Both the position numbers and the translations under genes were made by a program. From positions 682,001-746,000 of the forward strand of contig OY101117.1 of assembly GCA_956465555.1 (NCBI GenBank): DNA of 64,000 bases, read 5' to 3'. A model generated the notes under the pieces. It ran no database searches and was not told the DNA's origin. It worked only from the letters and a program-made list of their open reading frames with translations. The DNA is from Nitzschia sp. pyKryTriq1. Lineage: Eukaryota > Bacillariophyta > Bacillariophyceae > Bacillariales > Bacillariaceae. Positions 22,333 through 54,934 of this stretch are shown in pieces. Within the stretch, counting starts at the first letter, position 1; each line of letters begins with the position of its first letter.

Positions 22333-26941
<4,609 letters not shown>

Positions 26942-30896: not shown

Positions 30897-32535
30897 TCTT
30901 TCTAATAGATAAAAGAATGTTGTCAAGCAGGAGGGTGTAAATTGCTGTTTTTGTTGTTTCTTGTGTGCCCAACAATGTTGGATATGGGAAGGAGGCAGGG
31001 ATGAGCGAAGATGATGGCTGCTGTGAGGAGACCCGAAGTGAGAAGGTGGTCGAAGCCTCCTCGCGATGGTGATGGATGTGCGATCTGTGTACGTACCGGT
31101 AATTGTACCGGGTACAGTACGTGTACGAAGTACTGCTATTTTCACGAAGGAAGAATCCCGTACACGCTAAGACGACGAAGGTTTGGTGGTGAACCCGTAG
31201 ATGCTCGTACTTAAATGTACGCGTGTTCGGAGTTTCAAAAATAATAATGTCCGATGATGATGATTAATTGCCCGGCGGGTGGGGAAATGCCGAGGCACGC
31301 CAATAATTAATTATTGGTAGGGCCTTAGATGGACAGATATTGAATGAATGATCAAGCCGTCCAATAAATGAAAATCACTGACGTCGCTCAAATTTATTTA
31401 TTGCACAACAGCAGAAGGCTATTGTAAACAATCTTGGGCAGATGCGTCATGACAAATTACATCTTTTGATTGGCGGATTGCACCGGAGAGCGTACTTTAC
31501 TTTTAGTGGCTGGTAGTGCTGGGCAGGTGGCAGATAGATTGTACGGTAAACGGGGGTCTCCCCCCCCAGGGATGTCCCCCCCCCTACCACACTGCTTTGG
31601 TACCCCGGGGTACCAGGTGCTGTCAAAGTATATGGTATTTATAATAACACAAAATGTTACTGTAGACCTTGTACCAGATTCTACAGAGGGAAGGGCTTGT
31701 ACGGGTACAGGTAAAGGATGCAGCGAACATGCGAAGTGATGAAACTTACTACTTAGAAATTTCTAGTGCCTCATGGGGTCCATCCAGCAGCGGCCCATCC
31801 ATTGGAGCCGGAAGCGACAAGGGAAGGAAGACAGGCGAGCAGACTACGGCCAACAACCCGGGTGTCTCAAAGATCTTCGACCCATTCATCCCCAGGATGA
31901 CCAAGTTGTCCATCCGTGAGGCCATCACAAAAGGAGGTCCTCCGCCGGAACTAGGACGGAGGAAGGTCAGACTTTGGCAGTCTTGAAAAGCCGCCGTGCC
32001 AGTCTTCCCTTCGGTGCTCGAGCAGCAGGAGGGTCATCCTCCCAAGCAGCGAGAGACAACCGAAGGAGTACGATGACCACGAGACTCATAATTTGTTGCT
32101 TTGTTTCCTCGAACAAGCTGTTACGAGGAAAGCAAAGCAAGCAAGTTTGTTTTAGTTAACCCACCCGCCCATCCCACTGGCTAGTGAACCGTTTGAGTCA
32201 TTCGACTCTTTCGGGGGCGAAGGCGCGGCCTAGTAAATGCCTGCCCTTTTTCCCACACTAACCCGCAGCGTACTTATATGACCGCACGTAGGACGGTGAG
32301 CTGACGCAGCCGTTGGTAGACGCCGCACCCACCATGTTGTAATCGTTCAGATCTACACGCCCTGAATTTTCCCCGTCGCACGCCCCACAATAGGCTCGAT
32401 GACAGCAGCCATCCCGAACGGAGCATGTCGGTGTCTTACTGTACTGTAGTATCGGTACTGGTAGGCCCACCGGAATCCGCAAGGTTGTATCAAGGATTGT
32501 CGATGATTCATTCATCTTGAGCCTCAAGAACTACT
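30897..32535. other. Intergenic with an unexplained open frame
   Basis: No recognised gene. At 31560-31620 lie runs of C and the palindrome TACCCCGGGGTA. At 31669-31986 the plus strand is open for 105 codons (IFDPFIPRMTKLSIREAITKGGPPPELG), with composition that could be coding, but no family is recognised and no start context supports it. The last 100 nt lead into the FTO-like gene. Confidence 0.45.
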
Positions 32536-34065
32536 ATGAAAGGAAAGTCGAAGAAGCGTCAGCGAAATCGCGACGGCTCGAAAGAATCATCTAAAGAGGA
32601 GCCAACTGCCGATAGTTTCGCTGCACAGCGAAAGTTGCCTTCTCGGGCAACAGGAACATCCACCGCTCTCAATCTTCATGGAAAGAGGTTCTTGACCCCC
32701 GAGGATGGACAAGCTTTTCAGGATCTTGTCCGTGATCACTACCAAGGTTTCGTTCACATTCCTGCCGATCGAGTTACCCCGGCTAATTTTCATCAAACCG
32801 CAAAGGCCGCCTTCGAGCGCTTGCGCGATGCTAATTATTATCAGTACGATATTGTCAAAGCGGGAGGGCAGCATGCATCGCGAACGTTTGTGAAACGAAC
32901 TCTGGTGGGGGAGCCTGGGATCACCTACAAATATCTTGGTCTACGACTGTTCGCTCATGCATGGTCGGGGCCTGGTGTTCCTCCCGTTCTGAAAACAATC
33001 GGTGATCTGAATCGACAAATGATCGAAATGACCAAGCAGCACAAAAATCATGGCAAATGCGACTACAATTTGACCCTTATAAATTTCATGGAACCATCCA
33101 GCCATTCCAAGGTTGGTTTTAAAGAGGAAGCATATTATGGAATGGGAAAAGTCTCGGTCAGCTGGCACGCCGACTCATCGCTTGAAAGTAATTCATCGAT
33201 AGGCGTATATCATTGTTTACCTTCACAACGGTCAACAAAGTGGGATTGGAGGATTGCCCTTCGCCGAATACCGGAAAGTGGGGGAGAAGCCAGCGAAATT
33301 TTGCCGGTCGCGACATCCACTAAAGATGGCGATGTTTATTTCTTGCTCGGCACTTTCAATGAATCGAACCAACATTGTGTTCTATCGGGAAGTGAGTCCA
33401 ATCGAATAAGTAGCACGCACAGAGTCGCCGTCACCCAGGAGGACACCTTTGAGTATATTCAAAAGAAGACGAAAGGCGCCCTCAAGCGGTTCCGCCTTCA
33501 ACTGGCAGGAGATCGATCGAAAATGGACGCCAAAGTCATCGTGTATTGTCAACGCGTTCTCACCGAGGTAGAAATGGAATGGATAGCTCAATACTGGTTA
33601 CAAGGGGCGGAACATGACAGAATGCACGTATGGTGGCAACGTCCGATGAGAACTTTAGAGGCACTCTGGCTATCGTTGGAGGAACAAACGTTTGAGATGT
33701 ACCAGCTGTGTAGAAAAGAGCCAGCGTCGGTGCCCCGCCTGGTAATGAAAGGTTTCCTGTTGGAATTGCAGAGTCGGCAAAGTCAGCGACAGGAATGGGA
33801 CGAGCGACGCGCCGATAAGATCTACAAACGCAGAATCAAACCACCCTATCATCCTGTCGCAAAGCCTCTATTTGACGCCACCGATTCCAAACGCATTGGT
33901 AAGGATTTGGGCCGCGTGATCCAGGATATCACTGAAATACGACAGCGGCAGCTAAAGCGGGTTTCTCATACCGGAGCTAACTCGACATCAGGGAAATCAT
34001 CGGGTAGAGATGACGAGATAAAGCCCTGGACAAAGAAGAGCCAGAAACGCCAGAAGCGTGCATGA
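32536..34065 (+). CDS. FTO: FTO-like Fe(II)/2-oxoglutarate RNA demethylase
   Basis: One exon, 509 residues, against 505 in human FTO. FTO removes the methyl group of N6-methyladenosine and m6Am in RNA, using Fe(II), 2-oxoglutarate and O2, mainly in the nucleus. The jelly-roll domain runs from about 50 to 320: GFVHIPADRV, GEPGITYKYLGLRLFAHAW, NLTLINFMEP, EEAYYGMGKVSVSWHADSSL, then GDVYFLLGTFNESNQHCVLSGS and RISSTHRVAV. The iron ligands are His211, Asp213 and His280, and the 2-oxoglutarate-binding arginines equivalent to human Arg316 and Arg322 are Arg290 and Arg296, so the site looks intact. The helical C-terminal domain is present too, with EMEWIAQYWLQG, WWQRPM and LEALW. Basic ends (KGKSKKRQRNR and KKSQKRQKRA) fit nuclear entry. 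FTO is known from vertebrates and marine algae and is lacking in most other lineages. Confidence 0.95.
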   Translation: MKGKSKKRQRNRDGSKESSKEEPTADSFAAQRKLPSRATGTSTALNLHGKRFLTPEDGQAFQDLVRDHYQGFVHIPADRVTPANFHQTAKAAFERLRDANYYQYDIVKAGGQHASRTFVKRTLVGEPGITYKYLGLRLFAHAWSGPGVPPVLKTIGDLNRQMIEMTKQHKNHGKCDYNLTLINFMEPSSHSKVGFKEEAYYGMGKVSVSWHADSSLESNSSIGVYHCLPSQRSTKWDWRIALRRIPESGGEASEILPVATSTKDGDVYFLLGTFNESNQHCVLSGSESNRISSTHRVAVTQEDTFEYIQKKTKGALKRFRLQLAGDRSKMDAKVIVYCQRVLTEVEMEWIAQYWLQGAEHDRMHVWWQRPMRTLEALWLSLEEQTFEMYQLCRKEPASVPRLVMKGFLLELQSRQSQRQEWDERRADKIYKRRIKPPYHPVAKPLFDATDSKRIGKDLGRVIQDITEIRQRQLKRVSHTGANSTSGKSSGRDDEIKPWTKKSQKRQKRA

Positions 34066-53872: not shown

Positions 53873-54934
53873 TCATCTCGAGACACCGGCAGTGCTGCCT
53901 TCTTGCAGGCCTACCTCGATTTCCTCACCCTTGGTGGCTGGAACTCGATCTCCCATTTCTTCGTCGAAGGAGCTTGAGACTTGAGTGTTTTTTCCCTCGG
54001 GTTCAGCACTACCTCCTTCGCTTTCTTTCGTCACAGATTCGTCTCCTGGTGGAGGTTTTCGGCATAGCTTGTACTTCCGCCAGTGCAGAAACAGACTGAA
54101 GAACAGCCAAACCCAAAATGACACCATTTGGAGGAGAGTTCTAGTATCGCTGTACCCAAAGGGCTTGAAGATGGTCATCGGTAGACGATCAACACTCCAG
54201 AATTCATCGTCAAGTTGCCAGACAATGGGAGTATAGCCGTACACCATTTCAAATTTGTAGACCCCGCCAGAAAAGAGTCCCGTCGACAAAATCAGAAGAA
54301 GACCCACTGTGAAAACAGTCAATTTCACGGTATTCTTCATTCGATGGTTTGCTATGTAGATACCGGCACAAATAGCTCCACCGATACCGCATCCAACAAC
54401 TGCACTGAGGGGAATAGCTTTGATGCCCTCACCCGTCAGAAAGAAGGGAATGAGAAAGACTCCACATTCCGCAACTTCTCTCCAGATGTTCCAAGCCACG
54501 TTGAAACGAATTGATCGCCTTGTCAATCCATGAGAGGCCTCTTCCGCTTCCTCACTTTCACTTTTACCGCTCAACACGTGGCTCTTGCTGTAGTAGAGGC
54601 CAAAGAACTTGGGCATTTTCAGAGACAGCCCGAGGATGCAGATGGCAGCCACTATTTTGGAAACTCCCTCGATGATTATAGCTGTCTTATCATTGAAGTC
54701 TCGAGATAAGACGGCCAGTGGAATAGCGATCGCAGCACACAGAACCAGGGCAAACGCGGCGGCTGCCAGAGCGGAAACAGTGACGGCGCGCAGAGCCTCT
54801 TGCTTCGTCATGTCGGCATTGTTGTCCCAGTTACTTCGTAAAATAACTGTGCGATATTCTCCAATAATAATTCCTCCCTCCAGTACTTCCCTGGCGAAGA
54901 TGGTGACTACAGCAAAATTCAGAAGATCTGACAT
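53873..54934 (-). CDS. FTR1: FTR1-family high-affinity iron permease
   Basis: One exon, 353 residues. Seven hydrophobic segments. The first holds REVLE at residues 15-19, matching the REXLE iron-binding motif of yeast Ftr1, and a second copy REVAE is at residues 152-156, the two helices known to line the Fe(III) path. The C-terminal 70 residues are cytosolic, Glu/Ser-rich. Ftr1 works beside a multicopper ferroxidase at the plasma membrane; no such gene is within this window. The ATG at 54934 is first in frame. Diatoms use related permeases under iron limitation, so induction by low iron is expected but not visible here. Confidence 0.91.

Follow-up and report, generated by a model that had tools for sequence, protein, structure and literature searches.

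The open reading frame at 32536..34065 of the window, hereafter FTO-A, encodes a true FTO, and our main reading as a whole, to which we would assign a probability of roughly 0.5, is that it acts as an RNA demethylase on m6Am or METTL16-made m6A. The window is the whole stretch of DNA analysed (64,000 nucleotides; G000:C3:682001-746000 of a 40.65-Mb, 20-contig assembly). On this reading FTO-A would be an Fe(II)/2-oxoglutarate oxygenase of the FTO family that most likely oxidises the N-methyl group of a base in single-stranded RNA, releasing formaldehyde, and its target would be the m6Am that PCIF1 places next to the cap, or the m6A that METTL16 makes, rather than internal mRNA m6A of the METTL3 type. 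We infer the activity, the RNA substrate and the methyl mark, and these parts carry different weight: that FTO-A is an active oxygenase appears quite probable from its sequence, and the altered site for base recognition described below would leave a real chance of another substrate.

The gene is intact in a single frame, with an in-frame stop at 32518, 18 bases 5' of its start, and both the coordinates and the residue numbers given for it in the earlier note agree exactly with the open reading frame and the alignment. Its parts are as follows.

32536..34065, +: FTO-A, intact single-frame CDS, ATG to TGA, 509 aa plus stop
32536..32595, +: basic N-terminal stretch KKRQRNR, read from the sequence
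32713..32967 (G000:C3:714713-714967), +: FTO catalytic domain, first part (profile 2-84), carrying R121, Y131 and Y133 (human R96, Y106, Y108)
33019..33429 (G000:C3:715019-715429), +: FTO catalytic domain, second part (profile 135-274), with the iron and 2-oxoglutarate site
33166..33174, +: HxD iron ligands His211 and Asp213 (human H231, D233)
33175..33177, +: Ser214 codon at the position of human Glu234, a substrate-recognition residue (placed by alignment; role from PMC5424463, PMC3985658 and PMC7835257)
33373..33375, +: His280, third iron ligand (human H307)
33403..33423, +: Arg290 to Arg296 (human R316...R322), 2-oxoglutarate site
33442..33930, +: FTO C-terminal domain, residues 303-465 (Pfam)

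The domain matches are far beyond chance: FTO_NTD scores 205.2 bits (1.5e-60) and FTO_CTD 99.4 bits (2.6e-28), each against a Pfam cut-off of 27 bits, and the latter bears out the C-terminal FTO domain claimed earlier. The only further Pfam family at E<=1 is DUF5137, which is sub-threshold, and 2OG-FeII_Oxy_2 (PF13532, the ALKBH1-8/AlkB family) is not among these three. FTO-A has no PHROGs match, and neither FTO-A nor the second FTO gene of this genome, FTO-B, has an NCBIfam match. When FTO-A was compared with PDB sequences by phmmer, each of the 12 distinct hits at E<=1 was named FTO (best 3.8e-49); we take these entries to be human. The aligned stretches are 52-147 and 174-462 of the 509 residues, so that an alignment to animal FTO over the whole length, as proposed in the earlier note, holds for these two stretches and fails for 148-173 and both ends. 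A two-sequence structure model (mean pLDDT 39.6) was too poor for use. Reading KKRQRNR as a nuclear signal would be conjecture; conservation of the basic N-terminus of vertebrate FTO was described as not extending to the homologues then known from algae and diatoms (PMC2241624).

On the strength of the FTO_NTD and FTO_CTD profiles, together with a tree in which the FTO group stands apart from the AlkB rows, it is nearly certain that FTO-A belongs to the FTO family (PF12933 + PF12934). The 15-row tree contained human FTO as two joined pieces, FTO-A and FTO-B after trimming, and the full-length open frames of the 12 PF13532 (AlkB-family) matches that the profile search found elsewhere in the genome. 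Human FTO, FTO-A and FTO-B form one group apart from the 12 AlkB-type rows with support of 100/98, which is the outcome sought by the tree test of the earlier note, in a limited form that covers one vertebrate and one alga and takes all its AlkB rows from the genome of FTO-A. Since the tree leaves 8 of its 12 internal branches open and has several long-branched AlkB rows, only the FTO grouping was used. The AlkB-family proteins could themselves be other erasers. Two of their frames, L014 (C9:1860513) and L015 (C9:1855069), lie ~5.4 kb apart and are 99.86% identical over 724 aa, apparently a recent tandem duplication. Beyond this genome, FTO homologues were sought in viral contigs (two scans) and in prokaryote genomes (one scan); the pattern matches numbered 1, 103 and 17, and tblastn confirmed none of them.

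The earlier identification of the host as a diatom is borne out by the silicon transporter family (Silic_transp), for which 8 of 8 scored candidates were over the cut-off (best 6.9e-266) and one of 14 control genomes gave a signal, below the cut-off. The chlorophyll-binding family has 72 matching stretches, and the one light-harvesting protein compared with the PDB is of the chlorophyll a/c kind, which is not diatom-specific. Like-scoring matches on contigs C1 and C3 recur at a near-constant offset, namely the PCIF1-like frames L006/L005 and the chlorophyll-binding pairs C1:4283352/C3:3144038 and C1:4323268/C3:3186600; this suggests that 110 kb or more is duplicated, either as a segmental duplication or as an assembly artefact, with L005/L006 as the one pair aligned. 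Elsewhere in the window there is an iron permease FTR1-family frame at 53873-54934 (-), and the frames at 22610-26941 (-) with C2 and YbjQ-like domains, named after C2CD5, are perhaps one gene in several frames.

The active site divides sharply into a conserved and an altered part. In the alignment, His211, Asp213, His280, Arg290 and Arg296 of FTO-A correspond to human H231, D233, H307, R316 and R322, and human N205, Y295 and S318, which we take to be further residues of the 2-oxoglutarate site, are kept as N183, Y268 and S292. Ungapped stretches place human R96, Y106, Y108 and L109 at R121, Y131, Y133 and L134, with human positions below 110 numbered on our assumption that the T of the 'HMTPKDD' start is T32. 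The five human residues named first form the motif described for human FTO (PMC4224472). All iron and 2-oxoglutarate residues are conserved in both FTO-A and FTO-B, which also have the motif WHADSS in common, and as the two copies are only 33% (MAFFT alignment) or 25% (BLAST, 476 positions) identical, selection has probably maintained the FTO core. The L1 loop, by which FTO excludes double strands, keeps KEE-Y-GMG and K216 in the FTO-A sequence and is two residues longer than that of human FTO. At the place of human Glu234, both copies have serine (Ser214 in FTO-A), and the flanking H232 and N235 are A212 and S215 in FTO-A. The earlier statement that every catalytic residue is kept therefore stands for the binding of iron and cosubstrate and falls for substrate recognition.

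In human FTO, the methylated purine is hydrogen-bonded by R96 and E234, and activity is abrogated when these positions are mutated (PMC7835257); Glu234 is singled out as central to substrate specificity (PMC5424463), and the E234P enzyme is inactive (PMC3985658). FTO-A keeps the arginine of this pair (R121) and has lost the glutamate, and so departs from the vertebrate type of base contact. Given the serine and the inactivity of E234P, the diatom FTOs might fail to act on adenine marks, or might have another substrate. Replacement by proline is more drastic than replacement by serine, so that the human mutant does not settle the effect of serine at this place.

FTO-B was found when the genome was searched with the FTO profiles, which gave four matching stretches in two genes.

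L010 1261-4032 (G000:C7:2179092-2181863): FTO-B, 923-aa frame on contig C7, FTO_NTD 2.7e-51, FTO_CTD 8.6e-18

Its C-terminus carries an ASCH-like domain, which scores 19.3 bits in the whole protein, below the Pfam cut-off of 21.2, and 22.8 and 23.0 bits in two trimmed segments. The site is the only ASCH match at E<=0.1 in the genome search (23.5 bits, E=0.0026). The matches span 40-44 of the 103 profile positions, and a phmmer search of the last 210 residues against the PDB returned only a match at E=0.65; for these two reasons we hold the ASCH assignment, which comes from Pfam alone, with moderate confidence. A single-sequence structure model of the segment (mean pLDDT 35.1) was too poor for use. 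The ASCH fold is akin to the YTH and PUA folds. A literature search brought up no FTO–ASCH fusion in print.

The genome was also searched for writers and readers of methyl marks. In the 40.65-Mb assembly, searched as a single assembly in six frames with introns ignored, MT-A70 (PF05063; METTL3/14/4 type) gave 0 profile matches and 0 first-look candidates, and the METTL3 catalytic domain as a query gave 0 matches at E<=1. The same profile gives a signal of 1.4e-32 in a phage record carrying such a gene, and this positive control is a phage and not a eukaryote; the 14 built-in control genomes were all without a signal. In a tblastn search, the METTL3 query retrieves 124 phage records. No WTAP was over the cut-off in the genome; one candidate, at 21.2 bits against 35, was dismissed as coiled-coil noise, with 3 of the 14 prokaryote controls also giving sub-threshold signals.

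Genes of other writer types are present. The PCIF1_WW profile has four genome matches (two near-identical, one divergent and one weak), and NPPF, presumably the catalytic motif of PCIF1-type genes, occurs in three of the four frames. The locus DNA retrieved for L005 (C3:3073680) and L006 (C1:4213272) is 97.4% identical, and a single gene that the assembly contains twice may account for two of the three NPPF copies. L008, a PCIF1-like open frame of 1175 aa, shows no NPPF in the 914 residues read and is perhaps a non-catalytic relative of PCIF1. There is also one METTL16-like gene with NPPF, whose PDB matches are led by entries for the U6 snRNA m6A methyltransferase (1.1e-27). The one YTH match in the genome has the YTH domain of CPSF30 as its sole PDB match at E<=0.001, and two of its tryptophans align with tryptophans of that domain, which we take to be the methyl-adenine cage. 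At L009 703-2577 a CCCH-finger frame lies directly upstream of a frame that has both YTH and DCD, and if the two frames are one gene, as we infer, L009 may encode a CPSF30-like reader that has a DCD domain in addition. For another diatom, Cylindrotheca fusiformis, MTA, MTB and FIP37 have been reported from gmap with a 40% identity cut-off (PMC11312118); several of the queries in that source are given at 100% identity, and we read these rows as short spurious alignments.

As METTL3/14/4-type writers were not found, and PCIF1, METTL16 and YTH genes are present, m6Am and METTL16-made m6A are the leading candidates for the target of FTO-A; that these are its main substrate would be a tentative proposal, to which we give somewhat less than an even chance. 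METTL3-type mRNA m6A is an unlikely target. The PCIF1-type genes keep m6Am plausible, with PCIF1 linked to FTO-A only through gene content. Of the reversible m6A or m6Am marks that the earlier note had suggested for diatom RNA, the m6A part is thus weakened, both by the MT-A70 result and by the serine in both copies, and the m6Am part remains plausible. A tie of such marks to stress or light, which the note also put forward, would be speculation. DNA 6mA was judged a less likely target, as Phaeodactylum has been reported with 5mC only (PMC12695648).

Three other readings have to be weighed against an eraser of m6Am or METTL16-made m6A. FTO-A could be an ordinary vertebrate-type eraser of internal mRNA m6A, as its catalytic core, R96 and Y108 are kept, a YTH gene is in the genome, and total RNA from Phaeodactylum gives an m6A signal by ELISA (PMC12024952). 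We consider this unlikely, because Glu234 is replaced, no MT-A70/METTL3/14 writer was found in the assembly (with the phage-only positive control), and an ELISA on total RNA is not specific for mRNA m6A. A shift of the diatom FTOs to another methylated base, such as m3U or m1A in rRNA or tRNA, would make the change at Glu234 the mark of that shift. The same serine in two paralogues whose core is otherwise conserved fits such a shift, as do the contact of the Glu234 backbone amide with m3T in FTO (PMC5424463) and the loss of m1A activity with a rise in m1G activity in AlkB D135A (PMC3985658); against it, mutation of Glu234 in human FTO abolished activity on m3T as well (PMC5424463), and we hold it to be fairly unlikely. 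Replacement of Glu234 would also fit an FTO-A that is catalytically dead, serving only as a binding protein or decaying as a gene, and the intact frame and the retention of every iron and 2-oxoglutarate residue in both copies make this very improbable.

If FTO-A does erase m6Am or METTL16-made m6A, a wider view would be that diatoms run an FTO circuit free of METTL3, in which two FTOs with a rebuilt base-recognition site, one of them ASCH-joined, erase cap m6Am or METTL16-made m6A, and that the original partner of FTO was PCIF1 or METTL16 and not METTL3. This wider view is doubtful at present. Whether FTO acts on m6A, cap m6Am or snRNA marks is disputed, part of that debate being set out in PMC7835257. 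A cell with FTO, PCIF1 and METTL16 but without METTL3 would allow the role of FTO to be tested minus the usual m6A background. The residues MKRTPTAE are presumably the start of human FTO. They are encoded by the first codons of the primer for the exogenous FTO used in Phaeodactylum as an m6A editing tool (PMC12024952), on which our findings also bear. Phaeodactylum has its own FTO homologue (PMC2241624), and the available text of PMC12024952 does not discuss the native gene, the word 'endogenous' occurring 0 times.

An ELISA on total RNA does not separate mRNA m6A from rRNA, snRNA or cap marks. The signal in Phaeodactylum was 15.7-26.3% lower in three exogenous-FTO lines (PMC12024952), and the signal and its drop together make some m6A-like mark in diatoms probable, which could come from METTL16, rRNA enzymes or PCIF1.

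Compared with human FTO (PDB 6aej, 3lfm, 5zmd and others), FTO-A has both domains, HxD...H, R...R, R96, Y106, Y108 and K216 of the L1 loop, at 31% identity over 411 aligned positions with the human row lacking one loop; it differs in E234 to S, H232 to A, N235 to S, I85 to A and K88 to Q, and in a genome where, unlike the setting of human FTO, METTL3/14 were not found. FTO-B resembles FTO-A in its FTO_NTD, FTO_CTD and WHADSS motif and differs from it in being a 923-aa protein with long low-complexity inserts, in the divergence of its L1 loop and in its C-terminal ASCH-like domain. The stramenopile Phytophthora sojae is similar to this diatom in that METTL16 was found and METTL3/METTL14 were not, but it has two METTL4-type MT-A70 genes (PMC11449341), whereas no MT-A70 was found here. 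The distribution of FTO across algae and vertebrates has been treated as a case of horizontal transfer (PMC4358723). FTO homologues of Phaeodactylum tricornutum and Thalassiosira pseudonana, which like FTO-A keep the iron and 2-oxoglutarate residues, were printed in 2007 (PMC2241624), and Table 3 of PMC3265494 also includes diatom FTO. The presence of FTO in a diatom is hence not new; what appears to be new here is the change at Glu234, the ASCH-joined paralogue and the set of writers around FTO.
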